From Chryseobacterium sp. W4I1 (lineage in GTDB: Bacteria; Bacteroidota; Bacteroidia; Flavobacteriales; Weeksellaceae), in contig NZ_JAUSXQ010000001.1 in assembly GCF_030816115.1 (NCBI RefSeq), forward strand, positions 1,302,001 through 1,366,000: DNA of 64,000 nucleotides. Reading direction: 5' to 3'. The notes under the pieces are model-generated. The model had not been told where the DNA came from, ran no database searches, and saw nothing but the letters and a program-made list of their open reading frames with translations. The translations under genes were made by a program, and so were the position numbers. The stretch's first letter is position 1, and every line of letters starts with the position of its first letter. This document shows, piece after piece, positions 1,973-49,570 of this stretch.

Positions 1973-2191
1973 ATTGATAATTATATTAAAGAATTTACTG
2001 AAAGCAAACCAGAAGAAATCAATTGTGTCTTTCAATTCACTGAATGGAATCGATGAAAAAAAGTTCTTAGTAGTAGATTTAATGAATTGACAGGAATAGG
2101 TTCTACATCAGTTGATAAAAATTGCTTTCTAGTTGAAGAAGATGGCCTCATAAAAATTACACAGATTCCAGTTCATTACCTTAAAATTTGA
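1973..2191 (+). pseudogene. Broken small gene between the two RX4H proteins
   Basis: Frame 2 reads as coding-like sequence (LKIDNYIKEFTESKPEEIN...) up to a TGA at 2054-2056. It then continues in the same frame as a further 44 plausible residues to the TGA at 2189-2191, ending in DGLIKITQIPVHYLKI. No good start codon is visible. The composition looks like a small immunity-type or hypothetical protein that has lost its start and gained a stop. The family is not recognised. Confidence 0.3.
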
Positions 2192-2244
2192 TCAACTTCA
2201 GAATTTTAAATGAATTAATTAATAACCAAAAAAAATACATTGCG

Positions 2245-4011
2245 ATGCAATTTACAGATCTTGAATCTTATTATACTTATTTGGAAGAAGATGAAAATTT
2301 TTCCATTCTTGATTTTAATACAACTAAATATCTAAAAATTCTCGGTGACAGCTCTTCTGAAGTAGAGCTTAAAAAATTATGTTCTTACGAGCAGTTTTTT
2401 TGCGACTTTTCAATTAAAAAAGGAGAACATATACCCCAATATCAGATGGGAGATTATAAATATCCAACATTGGAAATGTTTGATGATAATTTTGAATATA
2501 TTAAGAAAAGAGCTAAGGAAACTGTTAATCCGAAATATAAATCTAGATATAATCATATACTTTGGATTAGTCCGCAAAAACATTATACTTATGCAAAGCA
2601 GGCGATTGAAAGTTACATGAATTTTCTTGAAAATTCCAATTTTGCGGCTAATGATAATCTACTAAATAATTCTTTTAGAACATATTTCGAAAATCTTTTT
2701 CTTTTAAGCCAGAGCATAAACTATAAAAGTGCCGAAACTATTGATTACTTTATCACACTTTTATCAGGGAGTAAAATAAGCGAGTTCTGCAAATATGCCA
2801 TCATGAAATTTATAGGTGAAAATATAAAAAAAAGTGATGCTGTGCTTTTTGAGAAGTTTTTAGATTATGCCAAAATTCAGGTGGAGATTGCAGAGGATAG
2901 ATTATTAGAAAGTTTTCTCAAATTATTGATAATTCTAAGTCAAAAATTAAAAAAATCTCCAGCGATTTTTCACGAGAAACTTGGCGATTGGCATATTTCA
3001 CAGCTTAAAAAAGAAGATAAACAAGGTTTTTTAGCTCATCATTTTTATTTAAATGCATTAGAAGAGTATAGGAAAGCAAATATTAAAGTGAAAGTTGAGC
3101 AGACAAGTGTATTGCTGGAACAAGCCAAGAAGAAGATTAATTTAAAGAGAATTCCTTTTGAAATTAAAGACGATAAAATACTGGAAAAACTTAATCAATA
3201 TTGGAAAATAACTTCTGATAATATTAAAAGGATTGTAACTGAAAAATCAAGTAAAGATATTTATGAATATCTTACAGTAGAGAATTTTTTACCTAAACCA
3301 AATTCAGAAGAAGAGGAACCTAAATCAGCATTGCTTGATTTGGTAACAACGATGACATTTGACATCAATAGGAATGTAAATAAAAATAAATCCGGAATGA
3401 TTAACCCTTATCAGCTCCATATTAACAATTTTACTTTGCGACAAATTAGCTGTGTATTTTTGGAAGGCATAAAGGAGGAAAAGATTACATTCAAATCTTT
3501 GATTGGCTACCTGGAAAATTATACCTGGTACGGAGCAGATTTTACTTATGTAGATAACAATAATGAAAAACAGGGATTTGACTGGATCGAATTACTAATT
3601 CCTTCTTTACAAGTTTTCTTTAATCAGATCGAAGCTGATCTTAAAACATCAACTAATCATAATCAGGGATATATACTTGCGATAGATAGTTTAGTATTAA
3701 AATTTGAAGGCCTGCTGCGCGAATTTTCTAGAGCAATCGAGGCGCAAACAATCGAATTTAAAGCAGACGGGACAGAAGAGCGAATTTCATTTGATAAACT
3801 TTTAGACAACGAAAAAATTACGGACTTAATACCAGCTAATGATATTGCTTTTTTTAAATATCTTTTTACTTCAGAAGGAATGAATCTAAGAAATAATATT
3901 GCACATTGTTTTTATAAAACAGAGAATTATAGCTCTGCCACAATGCTATTGCTAATAGTTGCTTTACTAAGACTCGGTAATTATCGCTTTGAGAAGAAGC
4001 TTGATAAATAA
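2245..4011 (+). CDS. DUF4209 (HEPN-like) protein
   Basis: The protein has 588 residues from the ATG at 2245. A TTG at 2188 would add 19 residues but overlaps the end of the upstream relic. Near the C-terminus is the sequence MNLRNNIAHCFYK. It matches the RNxxxH signature that defines DUF4209, which is also a HEPN RX4H motif (Arg549 and His554 in this numbering). The rest is helical and lacks membrane segments. DUF4209 proteins have no established biochemical role, and some are found in defence islands. A pair of RX4H proteins in tandem suggests an RNase-type defence or stress function, but that is inference. Confidence 0.65.
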   Translation: MQFTDLESYYTYLEEDENFSILDFNTTKYLKILGDSSSEVELKKLCSYEQFFCDFSIKKGEHIPQYQMGDYKYPTLEMFDDNFEYIKKRAKETVNPKYKSRYNHILWISPQKHYTYAKQAIESYMNFLENSNFAANDNLLNNSFRTYFENLFLLSQSINYKSAETIDYFITLLSGSKISEFCKYAIMKFIGENIKKSDAVLFEKFLDYAKIQVEIAEDRLLESFLKLLIILSQKLKKSPAIFHEKLGDWHISQLKKEDKQGFLAHHFYLNALEEYRKANIKVKVEQTSVLLEQAKKKINLKRIPFEIKDDKILEKLNQYWKITSDNIKRIVTEKSSKDIYEYLTVENFLPKPNSEEEEPKSALLDLVTTMTFDINRNVNKNKSGMINPYQLHINNFTLRQISCVFLEGIKEEKITFKSLIGYLENYTWYGADFTYVDNNNEKQGFDWIELLIPSLQVFFNQIEADLKTSTNHNQGYILAIDSLVLKFEGLLREFSRAIEAQTIEFKADGTEERISFDKLLDNEKITDLIPANDIAFFKYLFTSEGMNLRNNIAHCFYKTENYSSATMLLLIVALLRLGNYRFEKKLDK

Positions 4012-10156: not shown

Positions 10157-13100
10157 ATGAAAAAAAACTTTTGCAGCCTAGGCCATATTCAGTTGGCTTT
10201 TGGCTTCACATTGCTGGTGTCTTGCACAGCAATAGGACAGGTGCGCAACATTTCAGGCACGGTCACAGAGAATAATCTGCCTGTTAAAGGAGTTTCGGTA
10301 TTTCAAGAGGGGAGTGATGCAGTAGCGTTGACCGGGGCTTCCGGTAAATATGTGGTGCAGGTTTCAGGAGAAAATCCTGTGCTTATATTTCGTCATCCGG
10401 ATTATGGGGAGCGTAGGGTTCTCGTTAAAAATGAAGAAGTTCTGAATGTCTCTTTAACCTTAGCTGATCAATCAACAACCAACATAGGAGAAGTTATTCT
10501 CAACGCTGGCTACTACAAAGTAAAAGACAAAGAAAGAACGGGTAGCATCGCCAAGGTCTCAGCTAAAGATATAGAAAATCAACCGGTTGGAAATGTACTC
10601 TCATCGGTGCAGGGGAGAATGGCCGGTGTCAACATTACGCAGGGCGGAGGAATGCCCGGCGGAGGGTATGACATACAGATCCGGGGAAGAAACAGCTTAC
10701 GGACCAGCACCAATAGTGAGATAGACGGGAATCAGCCCCTGTATGTAATTGACGGGGTTCCTGTGGGCGGGGATATGAAGTCGGAGTTTTCTACGCTGGT
10801 CATTCCGCTTAGGAGCATAAGCCCCTTGAACGCTATTAACCCCAATGATATAGAAAGCATCGAGGTGCTGAAAGATGCGGATGCCACGGCGATTTACGGT
10901 TCCAGAGGTGCCAATGGGGTGATACTGGTGACCACCAAAAGCGGAAAATCAGGAAAGACGGAACTGAGCCTCAGCACGAATTATGGGCTCAGCAAGGCTA
11001 TGGTAGGACTTAAGATGATGGATACCGGGCAGTACCTCAGGATGCGGACCCAGGCCTATGCCAACGATGGAATCACATCATATCCCGGTACCGCTTACGA
11101 TATCAATGGAAAATGGTCCAAGGACCGGTATACCAACTGGCCTGAGGAGCTGATCGGTAATATGGCGGCCTTTTCCTCACTGCAGCTCTCCCTCAAGGGA
11201 GGAAGTGAGACCACCAACTTTCTACTGAGTCTCGGCCGAAATGAGCAGGAGACGGTCTTTGCGAAAGATTTTAAGTATGTGAACCATACGGTATCAGGCA
11301 ACATATCACACCGCTCCAAAGATAAAAAGTTACAGCTGATGCTTTCCAATCAGTTTTCGATTCAGAAAAACAACGTGGTGAATGAAGACATTACCCAGAA
11401 ATCACTGGTGCTTCCTCCCAATGCCCCACAGCTTTATAAGCCGGATGGAAGCCTGAATTGGGAGAACAATACCTTCACCAACCCCGTGGCAGTGTACAAC
11501 AGTACCTATACTAATGAAAGCATGCAGTACCTGAGCAACCTTGATGCCCGGTTCGAGCTGCTTCCCCATACGCTGTTGAAACTAGCAGGAGGCATCAATT
11601 ATAAAGCTTTTGAAGAATGGTCCCTGCGACCTAATACAGTTTACAACCCGGCCTATGTCACCGGGCAGTCCAGCTTTTACTCCAGCGCTTCAAAAAGCAA
11701 TCACAAGCGCTTTTCCTATATTATAGAACCACAGCTGGAATGGGGTTTTAAAAGAGGCGGGCACGAGCTCACGGCGCTATTGGGGTTAAGCCTTCAGTCA
11801 GAGCAGAATACCCGGGAATCGATGCGGGGGAGCGGTTTTCAGAGCAACGCACTGTTGCATAATATCGGAGCGGCACAAACCAAAACGATTTCCGACCAGG
11901 TCACGACAGAATACCGCTACGCAGCCGTATTCGGGAGGTTGAATTACCAGTATAAAAACAGGTATATCCTCAATATGACTGCAAGACGTGACGGGAGCAG
12001 CCGCTTCGGGGAATACCGCAGGCTGGCATCCTTTGGCGCAGTAGGAGGGGCGTGGCTGTTTTCTGAGGAAGGACTGCTAAAAGACAGCCCTTGGCTGAGT
12101 TTTGGAAAGCTGAGGGGAAGCTATGGGGTGACCGGAAGCGATAATATCGGAGATTACCAGTACCTGGATAGTTATATGGTGTCCGATTATATCTACAACT
12201 CGGTAACGGGGCTGATCCCTTCGCGGCTTTACAATCCTGATTACAGCTGGGAGAAGACCAGAAAATTGGAAACCGCCGTAGAGCTGGGGTTCTTTAAGGA
12301 CCGCCTGAATTTCACTGTTTCCTGGTACCGTAACATCAGTTCCAACCAGTTGGTAGGCTACCAGCTCCCTGCCATGACAGGGTTTACCTCCGTCCTTTCC
12401 AATATGGATGCTGTGGTGGAAAATAAAGGATGGGAATTTGAGCTCAGTGCCAGGCCGGTTGCCGGGCAGTCCCTGCGATGGTCGTCCGGATTTAATATCA
12501 GTTTTCCAAAGAATATCCTCCTGTCTTTCCCCGGACTGGAAGGATCACCTTATGAGAACCAGTTCATCGTCGGCATGCCGGTATCCGTAATAAGGCTTTT
12601 CCAGCTGGAGGGCGTAGATCCCCAGACGGGGCTATACCGGTTCAAAGACTTCAACGGGGACGGGAAGATCACAGCTCCCGAGGATAATAGGGTCGTGGAA
12701 AATATAGGGATCCGTTACTTTGGGGGATGGAGCAATACGCTTCAGTACAAAAGTTGGGAGCTCTCCCTGCTGTTTCAGTTTGTCAAGCAGAGAAATCTCA
12801 ACTATAACAGTTCAATGCCCCTGCCGGGAGGCATGTTTAACCAGCCTGTCGAAGTGCTGGATGTATGGTCGGCTGACCATACTTCAGGGTATTATATGCC
12901 TTACAGTACCGGGACGGTGGGGGATCAGAATACGGCCCAGGAGAACTTTCGAAACAGTACGGCAAGCGTCTCGGATGCGTCGTTTATCCGTCTGAAAAAC
13001 ATTCAGCTGACCTATCATCTTCCCATACGGGGCAGCTTGCTTAAAAGTATGAAGATCTATGTCCAGGGCCAAAACCTCCTGACGTGGACAAAATATTTCG

Positions 13101-13180
13101 GGATGGACCCCGAATTTACGGCAGGAGGTTTCCTGCCACCTCTAAGGACTTTTTCTTTCGGCACACAGATTAATTTTTAA
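10157..13180 (+). CDS. SusC/RagA-family TonB-dependent outer-membrane transporter
   Basis: At 1007 residues it has the usual SusC length. A signal peptide (residues 1-27) is followed by a carboxypeptidase-regulatory-like domain (VRNISGTVTENNLPVKGVSV). A plug domain comes next (GRMAGVNITQGGG, QIRGRNSL, YVIDGVP, IEVLKDADATAIYGSRGANG), then a long beta-barrel ending in aromatic ...FSFGTQINF. Such proteins import oligosaccharides or peptides across the outer membrane with a SusD lid and energy from TonB. The co-transcribed S9 peptidase favours a peptide-like substrate, which is inference. Base composition is clearly richer in G+C than the flanks, which suggests acquisition from another Bacteroidota lineage. 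Confidence 0.93.
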   Translation: MKKNFCSLGHIQLAFGFTLLVSCTAIGQVRNISGTVTENNLPVKGVSVFQEGSDAVALTGASGKYVVQVSGENPVLIFRHPDYGERRVLVKNEEVLNVSLTLADQSTTNIGEVILNAGYYKVKDKERTGSIAKVSAKDIENQPVGNVLSSVQGRMAGVNITQGGGMPGGGYDIQIRGRNSLRTSTNSEIDGNQPLYVIDGVPVGGDMKSEFSTLVIPLRSISPLNAINPNDIESIEVLKDADATAIYGSRGANGVILVTTKSGKSGKTELSLSTNYGLSKAMVGLKMMDTGQYLRMRTQAYANDGITSYPGTAYDINGKWSKDRYTNWPEELIGNMAAFSSLQLSLKGGSETTNFLLSLGRNEQETVFAKDFKYVNHTVSGNISHRSKDKKLQLMLSNQFSIQKNNVVNEDITQKSLVLPPNAPQLYKPDGSLNWENNTFTNPVAVYNSTYTNESMQYLSNLDARFELLPHTLLKLAGGINYKAFEEWSLRPNTVYNPAYVTGQSSFYSSASKSNHKRFSYIIEPQLEWGFKRGGHELTALLGLSLQSEQNTRESMRGSGFQSNALLHNIGAAQTKTISDQVTTEYRYAAVFGRLNYQYKNRYILNMTARRDGSSRFGEYRRLASFGAVGGAWLFSEEGLLKDSPWLSFGKLRGSYGVTGSDNIGDYQYLDSYMVSDYIYNSVTGLIPSRLYNPDYSWEKTRKLETAVELGFFKDRLNFTVSWYRNISSNQLVGYQLPAMTGFTSVLSNMDAVVENKGWEFELSARPVAGQSLRWSSGFNISFPKNILLSFPGLEGSPYENQFIVGMPVSVIRLFQLEGVDPQTGLYRFKDFNGDGKITAPEDNRVVENIGIRYFGGWSNTLQYKSWELSLLFQFVKQRNLNYNSSMPLPGGMFNQPVEVLDVWSADHTSGYYMPYSTGTVGDQNTAQENFRNSTASVSDASFIRLKNIQLTYHLPIRGSLLKSMKIYVQGQNLLTWTKYFGMDPEFTAGGFLPPLRTFSFGTQINF

Positions 13181-13191
13181 AACCAGAAATC

Positions 13192-14583
13192 ATGAAATTA
13201 CCTAAAATTATTCATCTAAGAAATATAGTATTGCTATTGGCAGCATTGCAGATCTTTGTGGCCTGCGAAAACCTGCTGGAAGTGGAGACGCCTTCCGACC
13301 AGCTGGATGCAGGAGAAGTGTTCGAAACGGTACAGACCGGCAATGCAGCCCTGGCCGGGCTCTATGCCAGTTTGTGGGATAATTCTCCCCTGTCAGGGGG
13401 AGCCCAAGGTAGCGGAGTCCTGCTGGGAAGCTATACGGATGATTTGGCGTGTTATTTCTCTTCAGGGGAGAGCAGCGGGGCACTTGACCTGTATAACAAC
13501 CTTCAGATCGCCTCCAATTCCAGTGTATATTCATACTGGTCGTCGGCGTATAAACAGGTGTATATGGCCAATGCCATTATAGAAGGTGCTGAAAAGTCCA
13601 AGTCATTACCTGAGTCTGAAAAAAGAAGGATAAAAGGGGAGGCATTGTTGGTACGGTCTATTCTTTTTTTCTACCTGCAGCAGGTTTTCGGGGATATTCC
13701 AATGCCGCTCACCACTGATTATAAAATCAATCAATCCCTGCCTAAAACTTTAGCAGGACAGGTCCTCTCCATACTGGAATCCGACTTTAATCAGGCCGCA
13801 GACCTTCTTTCTGACCAGTACCGAAGTGGGGAAAGGATATTCCCCAACCGAAAGGTCGCCCAGCTGATGATGGCCAAAACCTATATGCTCGAAGGAAAAT
13901 GGAATGAAGCAGAAGGTTTATTAAAAAGCATCCTCACAGGCCCGCTCTATTCTTTTGAACAGGACATTACCAAGGTGTTTCAAAAGTCCGGCAGTCATAT
14001 CCTCTGGCAGCTTAAACCTAAAAATACCAATGACCCCACCCTTGAGGTGCAAACCTATTATTTTTCTGATACGGCTCCGAGCCTATACGCTCTAAACGAT
14101 CATCTGGTGACTTCTTTTTCACCCGGTGACAAGCGGAAGCTCAATTGGATCAAGCCTGTAACAGTCGGTCAGGATACATGGTACCGCGCCGATAAATATA
14201 AAAACCGGGAATCCAATCCTACGGAGTATTCGGTGGTGCTGAGGATAGAGGATGTTTACCTTAGTCTTGCAGAGGCTTTGGCGAGACAGAATAAACTTTC
14301 CGAGGCTCTGCCATACATCAACTACACCAGAGGCCGAGCGGGACTCTTGCCTCTGGCCAACATAACTTCGCAAGAGATAGTGCTGGATGAGATTCTCTCA
14401 GAAAATCGAAAAGAGTTCTTTTGTGAAATGGGGCATCGTTTTATGGACCTTAAGAGAACAGGAAGCCTCAATACGTTAAGCAGCGTAAAACCCAACTGGA
14501 AAGATTATCACCGGGTATGGCCCCTTCCGCAGAAAGAACTGTTGCTTAATCCTAATATAAAACCACAGAATGATGGATATTAA
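13192..14583 (+). CDS. SusD/RagB-family nutrient-binding lipoprotein
   Basis: It is 463 residues long with an N-terminal lipoprotein signal (LQIFVACENLLEV, Cys at about 25). TPR-like helical pairs follow, as in the SusD fold (QTGNAALAGLYASLW, SYWSSAYKQVYMANAII, GEALLVRSILFFYLQQVFGDIPM). A SusD C-terminal part follows (ILSENRKEFFCEMGHRFMDLKRTG). It forms the lid over the SusC barrel on the cell surface. It starts 11 bases after susC and its last 14 bases overlap the peptidase gene, so the three are one operon. Confidence 0.93.
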   Translation: MKLPKIIHLRNIVLLLAALQIFVACENLLEVETPSDQLDAGEVFETVQTGNAALAGLYASLWDNSPLSGGAQGSGVLLGSYTDDLACYFSSGESSGALDLYNNLQIASNSSVYSYWSSAYKQVYMANAIIEGAEKSKSLPESEKRRIKGEALLVRSILFFYLQQVFGDIPMPLTTDYKINQSLPKTLAGQVLSILESDFNQAADLLSDQYRSGERIFPNRKVAQLMMAKTYMLEGKWNEAEGLLKSILTGPLYSFEQDITKVFQKSGSHILWQLKPKNTNDPTLEVQTYYFSDTAPSLYALNDHLVTSFSPGDKRKLNWIKPVTVGQDTWYRADKYKNRESNPTEYSVVLRIEDVYLSLAEALARQNKLSEALPYINYTRGRAGLLPLANITSQEIVLDEILSENRKEFFCEMGHRFMDLKRTGSLNTLSSVKPNWKDYHRVWPLPQKELLLNPNIKPQNDGY

Positions 14584-17053
14584 ATGGATCGCTAAATTGT
14601 TCCTTATGATTCTTGTTTTGTGGCTGAAGTCTCTTTTTTATGCTCAGCAGGCAGAGCCAAAGGATACCTTGGACCGATGGATTTCAAAATTCTATGAAAC
14701 GGAAGCAATGGCCATGTCACCGGATGGGAGATGGGTAGCGATGAAGAAAAGGTATACGGATCAGGACAGCATTTTCGTTTTTGATACGAAGAAGAAAAAA
14801 ACAGAACGGCCAATAGCTGCCAGGGCATCGATGATTCAGTTTTACAGAGAAAATTATGCAATGCTTAATAGTGCCGGCAGTGTATTATGGTGCAATCTGG
14901 AGACCGGTGGAATGCTTGTATATCCGGAAGTGAAACAAAGTGGTACCTGGTCTGATGACGGGTTTTGTATGGTAGATAGAAAGGGGCGCATGCAGATTAT
15001 GAATAAAATGGGAAAGCTCCTGGCTGAAGTCTCAAACGTGGTCTATTACGTTACGGATGGAAAAGGCAAACTTTTTGTGCAACGAAAAACCCAATCGGGC
15101 CATGAAGTTTTAACGTTTCAAGGCCAGAGCTTCAGAAGACTGGTGGCTCTGGATGATTTTGAGCGGATGGAACTGACCGGATCCGGGAAATATCTTATCA
15201 TCTACAGGCGGTTAAGAAAGGAGGGATTTCGAACACTGGGGGTCATGGATACCCAAAATGGGAACTGGCTGTACCCTTTGGGTGAGCAGGGGGTAAGAGC
15301 TGATTTTTTTACCGTAAGGGAAATTGATGAAGGATCATCCTTCTTAATCGAGAGGTTGAATTATATGCCGTATCCTGACAAAGAGGTTGAGATTTGGTAC
15401 GGAAATGATCGTGATCTGGCGAGCAGGGAAAGGGGTAGGAAGCCATACCGGACGTACTGGCTTTGGAAGGGAGATGGTAAAGCAGATTCGTTACATACCC
15501 GGGAAAATGAAACGGTGAGTACGATAGGAAGCAGCCGTTATTTTTTAGTTTTCAGGGGCGATGAACTGCAGGACTATGTACGGCATATTCCCGACCTTAT
15601 TCTGTACCGATATGATGCGGTGACAGGAATAAAAACCCAAATAGGAGCGGTAAGACCGAGGCTGGTCGCTTCACCGGATGGGCAGCGGCTATTACTGATG
15701 AATCAAAACGGTATATGGCAGCTGCTGGATATGGAAACTTTAAAAAAGAAGGAGATTGAACGTGCAGGGCTGGGAAAACCATATTTCAGTCAGGATTCCG
15801 GAACCGTTTATTTTGAAAGCGGATCAGGATTGTGGATGTACTCTGTAGAGTCAGGGAAAATGAAGAAGCTCAATGGAGAAAGAAAGCATGTTCAAATCAT
15901 CGGGGCCCAAGAACGGCCGCTGTGCACAGGGTATAACTTTTATCAGAATTTTATCCGTGACAAAGAAGGGATAATGCTTAAAACGGAAGATAGGGGAAAT
16001 GGGACGGTTTCCTATTACCAGCTAACGGGCCAAAAAGCCATATTGCGTTATGCCTCTTCTAATCATTTGAAGACCGTATTGTTCAGTGCTGACCATGCAA
16101 AAATGGCGGTTCTGGAAGAAAACTTTAACACACCTCCTGGGCTTTGGTTGATAGAAGCTCGTAAAAAAGAAAAGAAATTGTTGTTTGACAGCGGATCATC
16201 AGACCAGAAGGCCAAACAGCTCAGGCAGCAGATGATCTCTTATACATCCTCTTCAGGCCTTCCGTTAAAAGGAATTTTATATTATCCTTTATATTATGAT
16301 CCGTCTGTTGAATATCCTGTCATTGTCCATATTTACCAGCAGCAGTCAGATCAGGCTAAGACTTATCTTTTGCCGCGATACGATGAAATAGGCTTTAACA
16401 TCCGTACTGTACTGGAAAGGGGATATTTTGTCTACCTTCCTGATGTGATGACGGAGAACAGGTCACCCGGATACTCCGGAATTGACGGGGTAGAGCAGGC
16501 TTTGAATGCTTTAGGGCAGTATCCTCTGAAGCTGAAAAGCTTTGGATTGATAGGGCATTCCTTCGGAAGTTATTTAGCGAACTTTATTGCCACGCATTCC
16601 ACACGGTTTGCTGCCTATATTTCCGGATCGGGAGTCAGTGATCTGATAAGCTCTTACTTTTCCTACAACAGGAATTATTCCACTCCCCATTACTGGCAGC
16701 TAGAGACCGGGCAGTATGAGATGGATGCTTCCTTTTTTCAGGATAAAGAATTATACCTAAAAAATAGTCCTATCCTTAACGCAGATAAGGTGAATGCCCC
16801 TGTTTTGCTCTGGACGGGGCTTAAAGACCACAATGTAGTGCCTGACCAGACCATTGAGTTTTACCTTGCCCTTAAAAGAAGCGGTAAAGAGGTTGTGGCA
16901 TTATTGTATCCCGATGGAGGACACGACCTGGGAATAGGCACTGCGGATGCAAAAGACCTGACCCGAAGGATGATGGACTGGTGGGATTATTTCTTAAAAG
17001 AGAAATCAAATATTACCTGGATTGACAGGCAAATGAAAAAGGATGCTGATTAG
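14570..17053 (+). CDS. S9 prolyl-oligopeptidase-family exported peptidase
   Basis: The protein has 827 residues. An N-terminal hydrophobic segment (about 5-24) suggests export or membrane anchoring. A beta-propeller-like region (MSPDGRWVAM, WSDDGFCMVD, ASPDGQRLLLM) is followed by an alpha/beta hydrolase domain. The visible catalytic triad is Ser664 in GHSFGS, Asp753 in GLKDHN and His785 in DGGHD, in the S9 order. It probably cleaves peptides in the periplasm, next to a SusC/SusD importer. Its start overlaps the susD stop. The GC-rich composition matches susC and susD. Confidence 0.88.
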   Translation: MMDIKWIAKLFLMILVLWLKSLFYAQQAEPKDTLDRWISKFYETEAMAMSPDGRWVAMKKRYTDQDSIFVFDTKKKKTERPIAARASMIQFYRENYAMLNSAGSVLWCNLETGGMLVYPEVKQSGTWSDDGFCMVDRKGRMQIMNKMGKLLAEVSNVVYYVTDGKGKLFVQRKTQSGHEVLTFQGQSFRRLVALDDFERMELTGSGKYLIIYRRLRKEGFRTLGVMDTQNGNWLYPLGEQGVRADFFTVREIDEGSSFLIERLNYMPYPDKEVEIWYGNDRDLASRERGRKPYRTYWLWKGDGKADSLHTRENETVSTIGSSRYFLVFRGDELQDYVRHIPDLILYRYDAVTGIKTQIGAVRPRLVASPDGQRLLLMNQNGIWQLLDMETLKKKEIERAGLGKPYFSQDSGTVYFESGSGLWMYSVESGKMKKLNGERKHVQIIGAQERPLCTGYNFYQNFIRDKEGIMLKTEDRGNGTVSYYQLTGQKAILRYASSNHLKTVLFSADHAKMAVLEENFNTPPGLWLIEARKKEKKLLFDSGSSDQKAKQLRQQMISYTSSSGLPLKGILYYPLYYDPSVEYPVIVHIYQQQSDQAKTYLLPRYDEIGFNIRTVLERGYFVYLPDVMTENRSPGYSGIDGVEQALNALGQYPLKLKSFGLIGHSFGSYLANFIATHSTRFAAYISGSGVSDLISSYFSYNRNYSTPHYWQLETGQYEMDASFFQDKELYLKNSPILNADKVNAPVLLWTGLKDHNVVPDQTIEFYLALKRSGKEVVALLYPDGGHDLGIGTADAKDLTRRMMDWWDYFLKEKSNITWIDRQMKKDAD

Positions 17054-17058
17054 CATCC
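17041..17058. terminator. Bidirectional terminator between the peptidase and DUF6520 genes
   Basis: GGATGC-tgatta-GCATCC is preceded by A-rich and followed by T-rich sequence (tctttcattgtt). It overlaps the last codons of the peptidase gene and serves the convergent DUF6520 gene as well. Confidence 0.65.
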
Positions 17059-17068
17059 TCTTTCATTG

Positions 17069-17329
17069 TTAAGGTTTAAATAAAACATCACCACACTCGG
17101 TAGGACTTTTCGGAGCATTACGAAGCGGTGTTACTCCGTCTGCGGTCCACCTGCAGACTACCTTTTGAATGGTGCTGCATTCCTGGCCAACCTGTACACA
17201 TAATCCAGACTCCGGATCCATACGGTACGTTGGGATGATCAAGGCTTTGTTACTGTTTGCTACTTTGGTTGCAAAAGCAGCTCCTGTGCCCAGTAATACT
17301 AAGGCAGCAGGGATCATTAGCTTTTTCAT
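17069..17329 (-). CDS. DUF6520-family small secreted Cys protein
   Basis: The protein has 86 residues: a signal peptide (MKKLMIPAALVLLGTGAAFA) and a mature part with four Cys (GLCVQVGQECSTI, KVVCRW, PTECGDVL). This is the DUF6520 pattern seen in flavobacteria and sphingobacteria. The cysteines probably form disulfides in the periplasm. It is last in a minus-strand set behind a MauE/DoxX-type membrane protein, which in other systems supports disulfide or cofactor maturation. The function of the family is not established. Confidence 0.75.
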   Translation of the reverse strand: MKKLMIPAALVLLGTGAAFATKVANSNKALIIPTYRMDPESGLCVQVGQECSTIQKVVCRWTADGVTPLRNAPKSPTECGDVLFKP

Positions 17330-17381
17330 AATAAAAAAAATTAAGTGATGCCTACTCTGATCTAAGGTTTTCGGCTTCCCC

Positions 17382-18845
17382 TTATAGTGATTTTCGAAAC
17401 TGATAACTCAGAAGTTCTTTTCCTGAAATCAAATACAGCCCATGGCGTGTCACGATGACATCATCAATCTTTTGGGCGGGCAGATAAAAACTGCCTATGT
17501 ATTCACCCTTGTCCGTCCGGTAAATGTCTACCGCCTTCCTCCCTTTGCGCAGGCGCGCAGGTTCGAATTTGCCAGGTAATCCCGAAACATTATAAATATG
17601 GTTTCCATAGAAAGCTGCATTGAGATTAACCCTGACTGGTGGTGCATTCATGATGTTAGTCCCGTTAGAAAGCCGGGTGATTTTGACCTGCGCTTTGAAA
17701 ATAGAGTCTATGCTAGACTGCCTTTTCACCTTGGGAAGATCGTTACCGATGATAATAAACTGGTTCCTGTAGAAATAAACGTATATAAATTCTTCCCTAT
17801 GCTGCTGATTTTCGATCAGCATGCCATCACAGTCAAAAATACCGTCTATCTGCTTTTCTAAAATGGAAGGAAATAAGGTGGTGGTACTTTTCTGAGCGAT
17901 TTTAAGGCGGGCAATAGTATATTGATGGGTTCTGCTGTCTTGGGTCCGGAGTATGAAATCTGAAGAATCTTTTACAGCCAGTTGGGAAAAGTAAGCGTCC
18001 CCCTTACTAATGGTCCTGGCAATAGAATCTTTTAAATGCCCTCTATAGATAACAGGTACGGTCCCATCATAAAGATATAAGTATGGAGCCCTCACTTTTA
18101 TCTGTAAGCTTTTGAAAGGATGATCTGAATGATCCAGACTGATTTTAGTTGTTGTCATGTTTTTTAGCTTATGATCAATTTCTGTAAGAATTAAAGGCGT
18201 GCCACGTCTTCCCAGGTATAAGTTCTCTGCATCCGTGCCCGCAAAATAATAATCAGTGTGGTTAAGACTTTTCTTTCCGGCTTCCATCAGAAAATTAGGC
18301 AGGAATTTTCTGGTGAAATTATTTTCCTTTTTGATGATATGTTCGGATTGTAAAAAAAGGATAATGACTAGAATAGAGGATGAGACAATGACCGCAGCAG
18401 AGGAAAGAATGTATTTCAGTTTTGCAGTCCCTGTTTGCCGCTCAATAATGATAACGGCAGCCAGCGAAAGCAAAACACAAATAATGTTAAAAATCAAATG
18501 TTCAGTCCAGCCCATTTTCTCCAGGATACCCCCGCATGAACAGGGAACAAAGTCACTGTAATTCAAAATAAGATAAATATAAATGGTAAAAGCCGTCATT
18601 ATACCCATTGAGGCATATAATCCAATCGTGCGCAGTCTTGGGACCAGCAAAAAAGAAACGATAATCAGCTCTGCCGCAATTACGCTGTATGATGTAAATC
18701 CTGCGAATGCACTAAGCAGCGGAGACTGGGCGATCTGCACCTGAAAATTTTCAAAATCCAGTACCTTGCTAATCCCTGCATAGCAGAATAAAAGCACAAA
18801 AAAATAAGCGGTGAGGGTTGGGATGGAGTCTGCAATTTTTTTCAT
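17382..18845 (-). CDS. MauE/DoxX-family redox-associated membrane protein with a C-terminal extension
   Basis: The ATG at 18845 (MKKIADSIPTLTAYFF...) is chosen over a TTG 22 codons upstream. Four helices in the first 140 or so residues carry the family's CSCGGILEKMGW motif, a vicinal-type Cys pair facing the periplasm. A fifth helix at about 155-175 leads to a 300-residue exported domain of beta-rich repeats (possibly a propeller: 'YLYLYDGTVPVIYRG', 'YVYFYRNQFIIIGN', 'TRHGLYLISGKELL'). MauE in methylamine utilisation is needed for disulfide-rich subunit maturation. Here it is likely to act on the nearby Cys-rich small proteins, which is inference. Confidence 0.75.
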   Translation of the reverse strand: MKKIADSIPTLTAYFFVLLFCYAGISKVLDFENFQVQIAQSPLLSAFAGFTSYSVIAAELIIVSFLLVPRLRTIGLYASMGIMTAFTIYIYLILNYSDFVPCSCGGILEKMGWTEHLIFNIICVLLSLAAVIIIERQTGTAKLKYILSSAAVIVSSSILVIILFLQSEHIIKKENNFTRKFLPNFLMEAGKKSLNHTDYYFAGTDAENLYLGRRGTPLILTEIDHKLKNMTTTKISLDHSDHPFKSLQIKVRAPYLYLYDGTVPVIYRGHLKDSIARTISKGDAYFSQLAVKDSSDFILRTQDSRTHQYTIARLKIAQKSTTTLFPSILEKQIDGIFDCDGMLIENQQHREEFIYVYFYRNQFIIIGNDLPKVKRQSSIDSIFKAQVKITRLSNGTNIMNAPPVRVNLNAAFYGNHIYNVSGLPGKFEPARLRKGRKAVDIYRTDKGEYIGSFYLPAQKIDDVIVTRHGLYLISGKELLSYQFRKSL

Positions 18846-18868
18846 GGTAATATTGGGTTTATATTTAT

Positions 18869-19039
18869 TTATCCAATCTGAACAAGTTTCCATTGAATCT
18901 TTTTGCCGCAATAAGCAGGCATTTTGGTTCCCTTTGAGATAGGACTGGTGGTTTTAAAGGCCCCTATACTTTCCCAGATGCCGCTGGCAGGGCAGAGGAA
19001 TCCGGTAGAGCATATAATGGGAGAAGGACAGGGAATCAT
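18869..19039 (-). CDS. Cys-rich small protein, 56 aa
   Basis: An ATG at 19039 opens a 56-residue frame (MIPCPSPIICSTGFLCPASG...) ending at TAA 18869-18871. It has four Cys in all (positions 4, 10, 16 and 44) in a Pro/Ser/Gly-rich sequence, and no obvious signal peptide. It begins 22 bases after the lipoprotein gene and ends 23 bases before the MauE gene, so it is probably in the same operon. Cys density and position suggest a substrate or partner of the MauE protein. It could also be a truncated relative of DUF6520. Confidence 0.5.
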   Translation of the reverse strand: MIPCPSPIICSTGFLCPASGIWESIGAFKTTSPISKGTKMPAYCGKKIQWKLVQIG

Positions 19040-19061
19040 TTCTTTTCGTTTAGAGGTTAGT

Positions 19062-19262
19062 TTATTGATACAGGCGCCAGTCCTGCCCGTCCTTTACCGG
19101 TGGGTCCTTTTGTTGACTGCTGCTGTCCGTTTTGGAATGGGTCTGCATTTTATACCTGTCAAATGACACAGGATCAGGCTGGATGTCCTCATTACTGTCT
19201 GCCTGACGGCAGCTTTGGGCTGTGATGAGTAAAATACTAATGATGGGAATATACTTTTTCAT
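19062..19262 (-). CDS. Small lipoprotein, 66 aa
   Basis: This is a typical lipoprotein signal (MKKYIPIISILLITAQSC) followed by a short polar tail rich in Asp, Ser and Gln. It is the first gene of the minus-strand set (lipoprotein, Cys-rich protein, MauE, DUF6520) and diverges from the TPR-AraC regulator at 19536. Its function is unknown. The tail is too short for a catalytic domain, so a structural or signalling role is more likely. Confidence 0.6.
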   Translation of the reverse strand: MKKYIPIISILLITAQSCRQADSNEDIQPDPVSFDRYKMQTHSKTDSSSQQKDPPVKDGQDWRLYQ

Positions 19263-19535: not shown

Positions 19536-21257
19536 ATGATGTCAGCAACCAAGGTTTTGTTATTTTTTCTTTTGATATCTTTTGATCATCATTTTTCCCA
19601 GACCAAAAGTGAAGACTACCTGAGTATTAGAAAAAAGTACGAGAATCTGGAAAAGAATACTTCCGGAGCGATGCCATGGGTCCACCAGTATATCACAAAA
19701 GCAAAAAAGGAAAAAAATTACGCCAGGTTATTTCAGGGATATAAGGATGCTGTATTTTTTTCTCCCTCCGATCAGGATAAGATGCTGTATGCAGACAGTA
19801 CCATTCTGGCTGCTTTGAAATCTGGAGAAAAGGATCTCATTAGCACGGCTTATCTTGGTAAAGGGATTATATACTATTTCAATTTCAAGAAATTTGAACC
19901 TGCCTTAAATGAGTATTTGATAGCCTACAAGCATTCAAAAAATACAAATAATGATTACCTGAGGTATAAGGTAAAATATCATTTGGGTGTGGTTAAGAGT
20001 TATCTCGGATATTATGGGGATGCTTTGGAGCTGTTTAATGAATGTAATCTTTATTTTGAAAAGAAATGCGAAGAAAAACTTTATCCCAATGAGCTTTACA
20101 ACAACACAAGAGGATATTATAATACGCTGCATCAGATGATTGTCTGTTACCGGAATCTAAAACAGTATAATATTTCAGACAGCTTGGTCAGTGTGGCGCT
20201 TTCTAATACTTATGATATGGATGATTTTGCTTTAGAACGTGGATACTTTGTTAAGTGTAAGGGTCTTCTGGAATATAATCATAAGAATTATAAGACTGCC
20301 ATTGTTGATTTGAATCAATCACTGGTACCGATAACAAGAGCAAAAGATTTTGCATGGGCCTCTGTAGTATATTATTATTTGGGGAAAATTTATCAGGATT
20401 CCGGTCAATCAAAAAGCCTGAAATATTTTATGAAGGTAGATTCGATTTTCAGTACCCGTCATTTTATATTGCCTGAGGTCAGACCGAGTTATGAAGAGCT
20501 GATAAAAGATAGTAAACGGGAAAAAAATCTGGAAAAAGAGCTTTATTATACCAAACAGCTCTTAAAAGTCGATAGTGTGTTGAACAGAGATTTTACCTAC
20601 CTATCGGCTAAAATCCACAAAGAATATGATACTAAACTGCTTATTGATAAAAAAGAAATATTGGAGAGGAAAAGCAAAGGAAGACTCATCTCAATGATTG
20701 TATTTATTGTTTTATCATTCATATTCCTTGGAATGTTCATAAAACGATATATCAGAGAGCAGAATGTTCAGAGGAAGTATACGGAACTTCAGTATAGGCT
20801 GGGTAAAGAAGGATTGATTGCCCAGAATAAACTGGACGAAAAAAAAGGGAAGTCCGGACCACCGGTCGAGGAACGGAAAAGCTCACTGACGGCAGAACAG
20901 ACCCTGGAGCTAACTACAAAGCTGGAGTTATTTGAGAAAAATAATGGTTTTCTCCAAAAAGGTCTTACTCAAAATAAGCTGGCGGCAAAACTTAATACCA
21001 ACACTTCATACTTATCAAGTTATATCAACGAACAAAAAAAAGTTAATTTTAACCACTACCTGGCAGAGTTACGCATTGCCTACATTACAAAACTTTTAAA
21101 TTCAAATAAAAAATATCTCAATTACACCATTGAGGCGCTTGCCGAAGAGTGCGGGATTTCTTCTAGGCAGAACTTTTCTGACCTCTTCTATGAAATCAAC
21201 GGCATCAGGCCAAAGGATTTCATCAGAAAGAGAAAAGAAGAATGGGAAGAAGACTGA
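19536..21257 (+). CDS. Membrane-anchored TPR-AraC transcriptional regulator
   Basis: The protein has 573 residues. An N-terminal signal sequence (1-22) is followed by TPR-type repeats outside the membrane (about 60-340). One transmembrane helix (MIVFIVLSFIFLGMFI, near 390) leads to a cytoplasmic AraC HTH domain at the C-terminus (KLAAKLNTNTSYLSSYINEQ, then YTIEALAEECGISSRQNFSD). Such proteins sense a periplasmic signal and control nearby genes. It is divergent from the lipoprotein/MauE/DUF6520 set and is the likely regulator of that locus. Two relatives lie at 25047 and 27421. Confidence 0.8.
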   Translation: MMSATKVLLFFLLISFDHHFSQTKSEDYLSIRKKYENLEKNTSGAMPWVHQYITKAKKEKNYARLFQGYKDAVFFSPSDQDKMLYADSTILAALKSGEKDLISTAYLGKGIIYYFNFKKFEPALNEYLIAYKHSKNTNNDYLRYKVKYHLGVVKSYLGYYGDALELFNECNLYFEKKCEEKLYPNELYNNTRGYYNTLHQMIVCYRNLKQYNISDSLVSVALSNTYDMDDFALERGYFVKCKGLLEYNHKNYKTAIVDLNQSLVPITRAKDFAWASVVYYYLGKIYQDSGQSKSLKYFMKVDSIFSTRHFILPEVRPSYEELIKDSKREKNLEKELYYTKQLLKVDSVLNRDFTYLSAKIHKEYDTKLLIDKKEILERKSKGRLISMIVFIVLSFIFLGMFIKRYIREQNVQRKYTELQYRLGKEGLIAQNKLDEKKGKSGPPVEERKSSLTAEQTLELTTKLELFEKNNGFLQKGLTQNKLAAKLNTNTSYLSSYINEQKKVNFNHYLAELRIAYITKLLNSNKKYLNYTIEALAEECGISSRQNFSDLFYEINGIRPKDFIRKRKEEWEED

Positions 21258-32224: not shown

Positions 32225-34225
32225 TTAATCATTTTTGATCAAATGCTGCAGATCAGGATCTTTTTTTATTCTATCCATCTCATCCGTGATGATGCTAAGA
32301 ATATCGGTCTTAATCCTTTTATAATTATCTTCAATCTGTTTGGTCATCGAATCATTTCCGTCTTCATTAATAAAGGACCGGATTTGCGGAATCTTTTGAT
32401 AGTCTTTCATTTCTCTAGAAAGTTTAACGGGGTCCACCACAATCTCCGAATGAAAAATCTTCTGCTCAATCCTTTCCTCAAAGTTATCGGATACCGCACC
32501 GACAAAGAAACCCTGGGTCAAGGTAGAGATCTTTGATGCCGGGATCAAACTGTCCAACTGGGTTGAAATGGAAGTGGAAATGTCATTGCTATTGATCGAT
32601 ATACTTTGTCTTTTTTGCAGTACTTTTCCAAAACGTTCTGATAAAGTTTTTGCTGTCTCGCCAACCACCTGGCCGCTGAAAATATTACCGACCGTATTCT
32701 GGATAACCTTACTTTCTTTATCTCCGTAGTCTCTAGTCAGCTGGGAGAAATCCTGAAATCCAAGGCAAACCGAAACCTTATTGCTTCTTGCTGTGGCGAT
32801 AAGGTTATCAAGTCCTCTAAAATAAATGGTTGGCAACTCATCGATAATCACTGAGCTTTTCAATTGACCTTTTTTATTGATAAGCTTAACAATTCTTGAA
32901 TTATATAGTCCTAATGCTGCAGAATAGATGTTCTGGCGATCCGGATTATTTCCTACGCACAATATTTTGGGCTCTTCAGGATTATTGATGTCCAAGGAGA
33001 AATCATCACCCGTCATCACCCAATATAATTGAGGTGAGATCATTCTTGACAAAGGGATCTTTGCAGACGCGATTTGCCCTTGCAATTGATCCTGTGCACC
33101 GCCTTGCCATGCATCCATAAAAGGAGAGAGGTAGTTCTCTAATTCAGAATAAGATGTTAATATCGTAAAGACCTCTTCGTATTTTTTGTTCAACAGCTCA
33201 ATAGCATGCGGAAAAGTGCAGTATTTCCCGTTCTCATAAATTTTAAGAAACCATATGATAGCAGCTAACAAAATAATGGGGCTTTCGACAAAGAAGTCAC
33301 CCTGTTTTTGTATCCAGCTTCTATTGAGGTTCAGCATAATGGTATAAGCAGCTTCATAGGCATCTGATATATCCGTCATAAAATTGGGATTTAAGGGATT
33401 GCATCGATGGCTTTTTCTGGGGTTGTCAAAGTTGATGATATAGAATTTCGGCTTTATTTTATAAGCATCGGAATGATTTAAAAGATGGTTGTAGGCAATG
33501 GTAGACAAATCATCGAATTTAAAATCATAGATATACATGGAAAATCCTTTTTCGATATGCTGTCTGATATAATTGTTAACAATGGCGTAGGATTTTCCTG
33601 AGCCTGGTGTTCCTAAAACAATGGTGGCACGAAACGGATTGACTACATTAATCCATCCCTGATGCCATTTCCCCTGGTAATAAAACTTGGTTGGCAGATT
33701 GATGGAATATTCGTTGTATAGCAGTTTGGTCTCCTGCTGGAAACTTTCATTTTCACTGTTGAACACATCATCCATTAAGTTGTTTTTCAAAAGGCGGCTC
33801 ATCCAGACGCCAGCCATCATTAAGGCAAAATAACCTAACGAGATCGTTAAAATATACAGGAATGGCCCTATTTCTGAAGATAGCTTTAACAAAGGTGTAT
33901 TCAGAAAAAAAAGCACAAAGCCTATTCCCAAAGCCGTATAAATTTTAGACCAGGTCATTTTATCGTTTTTAACTCCCTTAGTACCCAGGCAACTTAAAGC
34001 CAGCAAAACCAAAGCAAATACTTTAGTATATAAGGTATGAGAAAACAGTCTGGCGGTATGCTGAAAATTCCCTAATATTTTGTTGATTAACTCTAAAGTC
34101 CAGCCGCGTTCGATAAAGAAACTGTAGCAAAACCAATAAAGGTGCATCAGTACCAAAATAATACTTACGGCCCTCATAAAAGCCATAATCCTGGCAAGCC
34201 CTCTCAAATCGTCTTCTCCCTGCAT
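32225..34225 (-). CDS. mobC: MobC/TraG-type coupling protein (VirD4-like ATPase)
   Basis: The protein has 666 residues. Two or three N-terminal helices (to about residue 155) are followed by an ATPase domain with Walker A at GTPGSGKS and Walker B at SSVIIDELPTIYF. Further landmarks are ARSNKVSVCLGFQDFSQL and 'IQNTVGNIFSGQVVGET'. This is the coupling protein that hands the relaxosome to the type IV transfer channel at the inner membrane. In CTnDOT-type elements it follows mobB; here 2.9 kb of cargo separates them. It looks intact. Confidence 0.88.
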   Translation of the reverse strand: MQGEDDLRGLARIMAFMRAVSIILVLMHLYWFCYSFFIERGWTLELINKILGNFQHTARLFSHTLYTKVFALVLLALSCLGTKGVKNDKMTWSKIYTALGIGFVLFFLNTPLLKLSSEIGPFLYILTISLGYFALMMAGVWMSRLLKNNLMDDVFNSENESFQQETKLLYNEYSINLPTKFYYQGKWHQGWINVVNPFRATIVLGTPGSGKSYAIVNNYIRQHIEKGFSMYIYDFKFDDLSTIAYNHLLNHSDAYKIKPKFYIINFDNPRKSHRCNPLNPNFMTDISDAYEAAYTIMLNLNRSWIQKQGDFFVESPIILLAAIIWFLKIYENGKYCTFPHAIELLNKKYEEVFTILTSYSELENYLSPFMDAWQGGAQDQLQGQIASAKIPLSRMISPQLYWVMTGDDFSLDINNPEEPKILCVGNNPDRQNIYSAALGLYNSRIVKLINKKGQLKSSVIIDELPTIYFRGLDNLIATARSNKVSVCLGFQDFSQLTRDYGDKESKVIQNTVGNIFSGQVVGETAKTLSERFGKVLQKRQSISINSNDISTSISTQLDSLIPASKISTLTQGFFVGAVSDNFEERIEQKIFHSEIVVDPVKLSREMKDYQKIPQIRSFINEDGNDSMTKQIEDNYKRIKTDILSIITDEMDRIKKDPDLQHLIKND

Positions 34226-42848: not shown

Positions 42849-43181
42849 ATGAATACCTATCATATCAATAAAGGCATTGGAAGAACAGTGGAGTTTAAAG
42901 GACTCAAAGCACAGTACCTGTTCATTTTTGCAGGGGGATTATTGGGAATACTCGTATTCGTGATGATCATGTACATGGCTGGAATTAATACGTATCTCTG
43001 TTTAATTCTCGGAGGAATCAGTAGTGGCCTTCTTATCTGGCAGACGTTCGCACTGAATGGAAAATACGGTGAGTACGGACTTATGAAAATGGAAGCCCGT
43101 AAGAAACATCCCAAATACATCATCAGCCGAAGGAGTATTTATCGATATCTGAAAACTAAACGTAAGAGTGCTTCGATATGA
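42849..43181 (+). CDS. traF: TraF (DUF4133)
   Basis: The ATG at 42849 (MNTYHINKGIGRTVEFKGLK) is the conserved family start. Two membrane helices follow (YLFIFAGGLLGILVFVMIMY and TYLCLILGGISSGLLIWQTF), then a basic C-terminus. DUF4133/TraF is a VirB3-like component that recruits the VirB4 ATPase. Its stop overlaps the start of traG by four bases, a common coupling in these operons. It is 110 residues long, the usual size. Confidence 0.85.
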   Translation: MNTYHINKGIGRTVEFKGLKAQYLFIFAGGLLGILVFVMIMYMAGINTYLCLILGGISSGLLIWQTFALNGKYGEYGLMKMEARKKHPKYIISRRSIYRYLKTKRKSASI

Positions 43182-45688: not shown

Positions 45689-45709
45689 ATCAATTAAAAT
45701 TTTATAACA

Positions 45710-46342: not shown

Positions 46343-46343
46343 T

Positions 46344-47337: not shown

Positions 47338-47349
47338 AAATACAGTTCT

Positions 47350-47973: not shown

Positions 47974-47983
47974 AATTTCCGTA

Positions 47984-48253: not shown

Positions 48254-48256
48254 AAT

Positions 48257-49555: not shown

Positions 49556-49570
49556 TCAAAAAATTAAAAA

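Follow-up and report, generated by a model that had tools for sequence, protein, structure and literature searches.

A conserved Bacteroidota cassette in which a SusCD importer and an S9 peptidase face a MauE fusion and the exported cysteine protein DUF6520

SusCD importers are usually seen as machinery for feeding on glycans or peptides from outside the cell, and in Bacteroidota there are known SusCD/RagAB peptide importers that come with peptidases. The locus considered here, from Chryseobacterium sp. W4I1, lies in a stretch of 64,000 nucleotides (the window) and raises the question of why such an importer stands face to face with genes for a MauE redox membrane protein and small cysteine proteins, and whether the two sets form one system, as an earlier note on this DNA had proposed.

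The two facing gene sets

Every gene named in that note, including the divergent membrane-anchored regulator, was found by profile searches. The forward set opens with a SusC/RagA-type TonB-dependent outer-membrane transporter (10157..13180, + strand), which has Plug and barrel domains and scores 668.3 bits against TIGR04056 (cut-off 368.25), followed by a SusD/RagB-type surface lipoprotein (13192..14583, +; PF14322 and PF07980 above cut-off) and an exported S9 (prolyl-oligopeptidase-type) peptidase with an N-terminal hydrophobic segment (14570..17053, +; PF00326, E 2e-22). With the SusC/RagA subfamily profile above its cut-off and the SusD lipoprotein adjacent, the pair is of the SusCD importer type, and import of peptides is predicted for it. 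The S9 catalytic triad of the window is Ser664, Asp753 and His785, columns which are intact throughout the alignment (S in 100/101 rows and H in 100/101, with one gap each; D in 101/101). Facing these genes on the minus strand are DUF6520, a small exported protein with four cysteines (17069..17329; C44, C51, C59, C79; PF20130), a DUF805b RNA (17349..17384), a MauE redox membrane protein with a C-terminal domain of about 300 residues (17382..18845), a 56-residue cysteine protein, Cys56 (18869..19039), and a short lipoprotein (19062..19262). The TPR/AraC-type regulator (HTH_18 above cut-off, TPR weak; one transmembrane segment, residues 384-402) is divergent as described, but at 19536..21257 on the plus strand it falls outside the range 10157..19262 in which it had been placed. 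The ATG at 18845 was taken as the MauE start because an upstream TTG would overlap the 56-residue ORF and relatives align from this ATG.

The locus sample comprised 141 loci picked by the MauE fusion, of which 110 were left after dereplication. DUF6520 adjoins the MauE fusion in all 110, and the convergent partners S9, SusD and SusC are present in 101, 99 and 96 of them, respectively; this is the opposite of what the note had expected to refute it, namely that DUF6520 and MauE genes would rarely lie near SusCD elsewhere. Nine of the 110 loci are without all three partners, and in five of these the stretch ends less than 5 kb away; four loci (L043, L070, L167 and L172), one of them from a close relative of the window, have no S9, SusD or SusC in more than 9 kb read. 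A reverse search from DUF6520 gave 11 strong matches (three from genomes already in the locus sample), all of which have a MauE fusion within 1.5 kb and ten an S9 gene. The DUF6520 and S9 genes stand end to end, the gap between them having a median of 27 nt and being 60 nt or less in 105 of 127 cases. The pairing of SusCD-S9 with MauE-DUF6520 is kept across genera and families, and the MauE fusion was not found at the strict cut-off in 372 of 395 sampled Bacteroidota genomes. Chance adjacency is ruled out, as the gene order recurs far more than chance allows. Judged by gene order, the two facing sets are one conserved unit in most loci, which bears out the proposal of a single system. A literature search for MauE together with SusD returned, among the matches examined, author names only.

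Among 51 complete loci the core genes co-vary (r 0.73-0.91), as do the TPR regulator, Cys56 and the lipoprotein among themselves (0.65-0.83); between the two groups r is 0.19-0.39, and the regulator hardly co-varies with DUF6520 (r 0.24). The best predictor of mature DUF6520 is the N-terminal part of the S9 peptidase (beta 0.53, p 0.002), with SusC also contributing (0.20, p 0.018); for MauE, the coefficient of the C-terminal domain is not significant and that of the membrane part, itself strongly conserved, is weak (0.09, p 0.026). In close pairs DUF6520 is tracked equally by the catalytic (r 0.89) and N-terminal (r 0.88) parts of S9. Such co-variation can reflect inheritance as a cassette, against which the decoupled regulatory module is the main argument.

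The core proteins and the DUF805b leader

The MauE protein of the window matches PF07291 over residues 8-131 (105.2 bits, cut-off 27; E 3.8e-30). This part has four transmembrane segments and a PCSCGG motif which is invariant in two alignments, one of 51 rows (the window and 50 of the first 60 loci) and one of 67 rows (66 of 80 named loci taken), the rows left out of each being mostly near-duplicates. A fifth segment lies ahead of the C-terminal domain, hydropathy giving five hydrophobic segments in the fusion. The domain, called new in the earlier note, is uncharacterised: no Pfam family was recognised in it and no PDB sequence matched (best E 1). A guess from the sequence pattern that it is a BF3164/DUF5128-type propeller was not borne out, with an hhalign probability of 1% against eight DUF5128 proteins and no support from Pfam or PDB sequences.

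The four cysteines of DUF6520 are invariant across 63 alignment rows (62 of 80 loci taken, those left out being mostly near-duplicates), all of which match PF20130 at E<=1; the match of the window's own protein is marginal, at 25.9 bits against a cut-off of 25.4, and falls below it in a six-frame genome search (24.6 bits). By hydropathy, a signal-like hydrophobic segment is present in 110/110 DUF6520 proteins, and the gene is under purifying selection in seven close pairs. Among PDB sequences the best match has an E of only 0.25 and is with the N-terminal 27 residues of a cytochrome c1 chain, and the literature searched gave no paper on DUF6520 and none on NVEALA. Kinship with NVEALA is unsupported, the profile matching 1/63 rows at E 0.1; it is also scarce in the sample, with matches in 2/198 genomes and none above cut-off. 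On both the NVEALA and the DUF5128 side, the cassette does not match the NVEALA/DUF5128 sets of Bacteroides.

Directly 5' of DUF6520, and overlapping the MauE stop codon, the DUF805b RNA is a member of its family (RF02914; 45.3 bits, gathering cut-off 35.6, E 1.1e-9). We propose that it folds as an H-type pseudoknot, with P1 formed by 17383-17380 and 17367-17364 and P2 by 17375-17373 and 17352-17350; of these two helices the printed Rfam model has just P1. In an alignment of 64 leaders (the window and 63 of the 102 others found, those left out being mostly near-duplicates) the covariation of the pseudoknot was 0.286 compared with 0.117 (sd 0.011) in shuffles, 0/500 of which reached it, and P2 was paired in 100% of cells. 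Pairs changed on both sides numbered 5 against 3.7 in shuffles, a value matched by 46/500, and an outermost P1 pair, when tried, was unpaired in 41/57. The proposed pseudoknot is backed by this covariation. Across five genomes of the genus, 38 of 59 DUF805b sites precede bacteriocin/RiPP-like precursor genes and 12 precede other genes, with 8/13 preceding such precursors in the genome studied here. The classes were assigned by eye; of ten precursors tested, seven passed NCBIfam cut-offs. Outside the genus the genes behind DUF805b are more diverse. No tie of DUF805b to DUF6520 or to bacteriocin-like genes was found in the literature searched, which did not take in the RNA family's presumed source paper, and a search for DUF805 gave no title concerning this RNA.

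An exchangeable regulatory module and sister cassettes

Conservation of the ORF of 56 residues between the lipoprotein and MauE genes had been suggested as a check. The ORF occurs at the expected place in 67/110 dereplicated loci, its dN/dS ranges from 0 to 0.22 across seven close pairs, and it behaves as a real gene. An alignment of 29 rows (28/40 taken; those left out mostly near-duplicates) gives the motif tGxxCPxSGxWexxG...MPxYCGkKvxWxL, in which the second cysteine is not invariant, and against Pfam yielded weak Imm72 matches only (7/29 rows, best E 0.023). Cys56 co-varies with the TPR regulator (r 0.83) and far less with the adjoining MauE (r 0.33); for the lipoprotein, which has a lipobox pattern in 70/75 dereplicated loci and a PxKDGxDW-like motif near its C-terminus in 67/75, the corresponding values are 0.81 and 0.38. 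Other taxa have another AraC or a Crp-type protein where the TPR regulator would be. From these patterns, Cys56, the lipoprotein and the TPR-AraC regulator are a separate, exchangeable module.

Both small cysteine proteins had been regarded as plausible MauE substrates. This holds up for DUF6520, which is exported and beside MauE in every dereplicated locus, but Cys56 is an unlikely substrate, because 66 of 67 Cys56 proteins have no signal-like segment (1/67 against 110/110 for DUF6520 at the same hydropathy setting), the second cysteine varies and co-variation is with the regulator and not with MauE.

Loci with a short MauE are a parallel unit to the DUF6520 cassette as judged from their gene content. 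Twenty of about 28 such matches were taken, and 19 of these have an exported-looking protein of exactly two cysteines and a convergent SusD, the SusCD being mostly of another group than that of the main cassette. A thioredoxin-fold gene is added in 4/20, and the S9 profile matched in none of the 20 stretches.

Related systems and possible roles

The cassette resembles SusCD/RagAB importers in that a single operon encodes SusC, SusD and an exported peptidase, but differs by its convergent MauE, exported four-cysteine protein and RNA leader. With the Mau system, in which MauE/MauD serve methylamine dehydrogenase maturation, it shares the adjacency of a MauE-family membrane protein and a small exported cysteine protein, the thioredoxin-fold gene of the four sister cassettes being a further likeness; however, the extra C-terminal domain and the SusCD linkage set it apart, and profile searches found no methylamine dehydrogenase gene or MauD-like thioredoxin partner among the cassette genes. 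A TonB receptor also occurs beside lasso peptide isopeptidase genes, and loci with an AtxE2-type isopeptidase have an S9-type peptidase in common with the cassette, which differs by the Sec-type signal of DUF6520 and by the lack of any match to a lasso biosynthesis profile. As a lasso peptide isopeptidase (NF033523) the S9 protein was rejected, at 80.4 bits against a cut-off of 400. Isopeptidase genes adjoin lasso peptide clusters, according to an excerpt of PMC13352647, and excerpts of the decRiPPter study (PMC7794033) describe, in Streptomyces, three families of candidate RiPPs that have mauE homologues, the predicted precursor of each containing at least eight cysteines. The latter share with the cassette, as far as those excerpts go, a MauE homologue and a cysteine-rich predicted precursor, but belong to another phylum, and the cassette has a Sec-type signal peptide, a TonB-type importer and a peptidase. 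DUF6520 does not qualify as a RiPP precursor: its signal is of the Sec type, and none of the cassette genes matched a known modifying-enzyme profile.

The reading we favour, albeit tentatively, is of a two-module cassette in which MauE matures the disulfides of DUF6520, itself a dedicated partner, and probably the cargo, of SusCD-S9. The core module would be SusC-SusD-S9 facing the MauE fusion, the DUF805b RNA and DUF6520. DUF6520 would reach the periplasm via Sec, where MauE, with a CxC motif predicted to lie on this side of the membrane, would help to form its two disulfides, the C-terminal domain acting as a docking part; the folded protein would most likely be either the importer's cargo or a carrier of it, which SusCD would take up and the S9 peptidase, or a thioredoxin-like enzyme in its place in some sister cassettes, would open. 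The pseudoknot may set the output of DUF6520 apart from that of MauE, and the regulatory module (TPR-AraC, lipoprotein and Cys56; another AraC or Crp-type protein elsewhere) would turn the cassette on, the gain to the cell being perhaps metal or nutrient scavenging, or signalling. An extension of this, which we think unlikely, is that a self-made disulfide protein is released, retaken via its dedicated SusCD and opened by the peptidase or thioredoxin-like enzyme, and would be the equivalent, in protein form, of a siderophore or autosignal, produced under DUF805b, whose regulon in this genus would be mainly exported peptides.

The earlier note had spoken of a candidate export or redox system. 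Among the cassette genes none was recognised as an export gene, those for transport being of import type, and DUF6520 may therefore never leave the periplasm. There, stabilised by its disulfides, it could inhibit, chaperone or regulate S9, which would digest peptide imported by SusCD, with MauE only folding DUF6520 as an accessory and not a cargo. The Sec-type signal with no recognised outer-membrane export route, the close tracking of mature DUF6520 by the S9 N-terminal part and the end-to-end genes all point this way, but the sister cassettes keep an exported cysteine protein beside SusCD with no S9 profile match in their 20 stretches, and SusC is an independent significant predictor of DUF6520, so that we hold this explanation to be somewhat unlikely.

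Two further explanations carry less weight. The DUF805b leader which DUF6520 has in common with the bacteriocin/RiPP-like precursors (38/59 sites in the five genomes; 8/13 in its own) would fit a bacteriocin-like product or a peptide signal that is secreted and that SusCD-S9 returns and degrades, whether to give immunity, to recycle it or to let the TPR regulator sense it; the Sec-type signal in place of a GG leader, the lack of recognised export or modification genes, the swapping of the regulator in other taxa with its low co-variation with DUF6520, and the purifying selection on DUF6520 make this improbable. It is very doubtful that the locus is an ordinary one for peptide nutrients, with SusCD-S9 importing outside peptides and MauE-DUF6520 a stress or redox pair kept near by shared regulation only: known RagAB-like importers with peptidases and the four loci with MauE-DUF6520 alone would agree with it, but the pairing is seen in different genera and families, and it turns up again where the SusCD is mostly of a different group and the exported cysteine protein is of another kind.

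The cassette gives a gene context to DUF6520, to the MauE C-terminal domain and to the orphan RNA family DUF805b, which, as it mostly marks bacteriocin/RiPP-like precursor genes in five genomes of the genus, could serve to find them. If the favoured reading of DUF6520 as partner and probable cargo is true, some SusCD importers, a large conserved group with their own exported disulfide protein and a MauE helper, would serve a molecule made by the cell itself.

Composition and conservation of the cassette

Every gene named in the earlier note was found in the window with an open reading frame. The forward-strand operon comprises SusC (10157-13180), SusD (13192-14583) and an exported S9 peptidase (14570-17053), and converges with a reverse-strand operon of a lipoprotein (19062-19262), a 56-aa Cys protein (Cys56; 18869-19039), a MauE fusion with an uncharacterised domain of some 300 aa (17382-18845) and DUF6520 (17069-17329); a TPR/AraC regulator (19536-21257, forward strand) is divergent from the lipoprotein gene. 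The whole genome (4.62 Mb) is one contig. Elsewhere in the window are conjugative transposon genes (YWFCY/coupling protein, TraG-family ATPase and TraN; 32225-34225 and 43178-50473), with a YhcG-type PDDEXK nuclease (DUF1016) gene inside the conjugative region (41367-42341), and at 2188-4011 a 607-aa DUF4209/DUF7380 protein matching the PADLOC candidate defence model PDC-S39.

A search for the MauE fusion in the same family gave matches, short MauE genes counted, in 89 of 197 genomes, from which 60 places were taken, mainly by score; a further 80 named loci, chosen as the best among 550, came from a second collection. Both sets were searched for all window genes and, with the window, gave 141 loci, or 110 once near-identical MauE genes were removed. 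Among the best 80 were loci from Pedobacter, Sphingobacterium, Chitinophaga, Empedobacter, Sunxiuqinia, Draconibacterium and Chryseobacterium, the last supplying the closest named MauE relatives (five loci, 67-74% identity). The grouping suggested in the earlier note, DUF6520 beside MauE and SusCD with a conserved Cys ORF of about 56 aa, recurs in these genomes: in the 110 dereplicated loci, DUF6520 was found in the expected orientation in 110, S9 in 101, SusD in 99 and SusC in 96, and the regulator, lipoprotein and Cys56 in 78, 75 and 67, respectively. SusC is missing from 14 loci, nine of which also lack S9 and SusD; in five of these nine the stretch stops within 5 kb. The coupling of MauE-DUF6520 to SusCD-S9 is strong, yet not absolute, because four loci (L043, L070, L167 and L172) have the MauE fusion and DUF6520 but no S9, SusD or SusC in the more than 9 kb read beyond them.

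In the reverse direction, a DUF6520 profile gave 14 matches in 12 of 118 Bacteroidota genomes. All 11 with E ≤ 5e-5, three of them from genomes used before, adjoin a MauE fusion (one split into two frames), with a facing S9 gene within 1.5 kb in ten and the leader RNA pattern in nine; the three weaker matches have no adjoining MauE and seem to rest on the signal peptide. DUF6520 and S9 are separated by a median of 27 nt, and by at most 60 nt in 105 of 127 cases, counted before dereplication. The window cassette is thus mostly one unit. In L135, genes resembling Cas2, Cas1 and a large Cas9 (13131-18602; by eye, from translation) lie between DUF6520 and an S9 fragment.

The exported Cys protein and its probable partners

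Of about 28 family matches to short MauE genes that lack the C-terminal domain, 20 loci (L333-L352) were read. In 19, MauE is followed by a small protein with exactly two Cys and a signal-like N-terminus (16 by pattern, three by eye), present twice in L347, and in the same 19 SusD converges on it; SusC lies inside the stretch in 16. A divergent TPR-AraC gene was found in 16, the lipoprotein in nine and Cys56 in six, and S9 in none of the 20 stretches; in four, the small protein and SusD are separated by a thioredoxin-fold gene, in the place that S9 takes in the main group. Against the main-group profile, sister SusD proteins score 61-92 bits in 17 loci, 37 and 40 for a split gene and 371 in one, and the low scores place the sister cassettes mostly in another SusCD group; the exception is L351. 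Four of five two-Cys proteins tested match the Pfam family DUF6520, one just over the cut-off, and the fifth has no match. Of all the evidence, this recurrence argues most strongly that an exported Cys protein, MauE and SusCD work together.

A signal-like N-terminus and, across 63 alignment rows, four invariant Cys characterise DUF6520. The CxC motif of MauE is likewise invariant and, from hydropathy, would lie in a periplasmic loop, and the S9 triad is intact in all rows with letters at those columns. We think that MauE may help to form the disulfides of DUF6520. Parallels are the Mau system, in which MauE is speculated to have a role in disulfide formation, and candidate RiPP clusters of Streptomyces with mauE homologues and predicted precursors of at least eight Cys (PMC7794033).

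In a regression on mature DUF6520 distances (96 loci, standardised coefficients), the best predictor was the N-terminal region of S9 (0.53, p 0.002), followed by SusC (0.20, p 0.018) and, weakly, the MauE membrane part (0.09, p 0.026); no significant effect came from the C-terminal domain of MauE, from SusD or from the catalytic part of S9. As the catalytic end of S9 is encoded nearest DUF6520, this argues against simple linkage; however, in close pairs both S9 parts follow DUF6520 equally (r 0.88 and 0.89), and the tracking is correlation, not contact. With its disulfides formed, DUF6520 would be the specific partner of SusCD-S9, and probably its cargo. This reading has two main weaknesses: the cassette genes include no recognisable route to the outside, and MauE-DUF6520 occurs in a few loci with no SusCD-S9 nearby; the best rival is that DUF6520 acts in the periplasm on S9. 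The parts are of known kinds; their fixed combination is not known to us, and a limited literature search, judged mostly by title-level information, found no paper on it.

A probable, separable control module

In 51 loci where all eight genes are present, pairwise protein distances fall into two groups: SusC, SusD, S9, DUF6520 and MauE correlate mutually at r 0.73-0.91 (0.63-0.90 in 96 core loci), and TPR-AraC, Cys56 and the lipoprotein at 0.65-0.83, whereas between groups r is 0.19-0.39, still with p 0.001-0.003. Cys56 adjoins MauE yet groups with the regulator, and SusC, several kb away, groups with MauE. Between L046 and L178 the regulators are 97% identical, MauE 47% and DUF6520 27%; as Cys56 is only 64% identical, a swap may involve just part of the block. 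Outside Weeksellaceae, another AraC-type protein (HTH_18 in all five tested, over cut-off in three) or, in some loci, a Crp-like protein (below cut-off in both tested) stands upstream of MauE. Co-variation, exchange and these other regulators make Cys56 and the lipoprotein most likely parts of a control module. At the same hydropathy setting, a hydrophobic segment was found in 1 of 67 Cys56 proteins versus 110 of 110 DUF6520 proteins. The lipoproteins vary in sequence apart from a PxKDGxDW-like motif at the C-terminus in 67 of 75 loci, a pattern as in a tethered ligand peptide.

The DUF805b leader

Between MauE and DUF6520 lies a DUF805b RNA that the earlier note did not recognise (Rfam RF02914; 17349-17384, reverse strand), scoring 45.3 bits where the gathering score is 35.6. 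By pattern, 103 of 110 loci carry the leader ahead of DUF6520, with its end 19-27 nt from the start codon, and the seven misses are visible variants; none of the other seven genes showed it upstream (0/96, 0/99, 0/101, 0/78, 0/75, 0/67 and 0/110), with the first start codon taken as gene start. An H-type pseudoknot is supported by 64 leaders: pairing reaches 89.8% of cells against 80.8% in shuffles, the covariation of 0.286 compares with 0.117 (0/500 shuffles as high), helix P2 is paired in all cells, and shifting the partner by one column lowers pairing to at most 49%. Less favourable are the relatedness of the leaders, the count of pairs changed on both sides (five, reached in 46 of 500 shuffles) and the outermost P1 pair tried, which is mostly unpaired. 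In the related family f2, P2 is changed on both sides, e.g., GATC with GATC (by eye). Four of the 20 sister loci (L346, L347, L349 and L350) also show the pattern downstream of MauE.

The window's genome holds 13 strong copies (E ≤ 5.1e-6, ten over the gathering score; next match 0.22). Classed by eye, eight stand ahead of short precursors of the GG-leader or RiPP type, one ahead of DUF6520 and four ahead of other genes. Each of 16 genus genomes sampled has 2-15 copies, and at 1e-5 the RNA was found in 9 of 25 family genomes. Behind 59 of 61 sites read in five genus genomes, classed by eye, were 38 GG-leader-type precursors, six DUF6520, three exported proteins with two Cys, of which one was read from L347, and 12 others; seven of ten chosen precursors pass NCBIfam cut-offs (bacteriocin-like, lanthipeptide and related models), two fall below and one has no match. 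From these counts, DUF805b in the genus is mainly, though not solely, a leader of exported-peptide genes; outside it the downstream genes are more varied. Single own-genome loci adjoin LanB-, ATP-grasp-, HlyD- or peptidase-ABC transporter-like genes (by eye). At G000:C1:4008229 and 4009144 in the same genome (L184 and L194), genes that by eye look caspase-like and trypsin-like adjoin, each with its own leader, a pair seen again in another genome (L276 and L282). DUF805b could mark bacteriocin- or RiPP-like precursor genes in the genus (window 17349-17384, L183-L195 and L273-L332).
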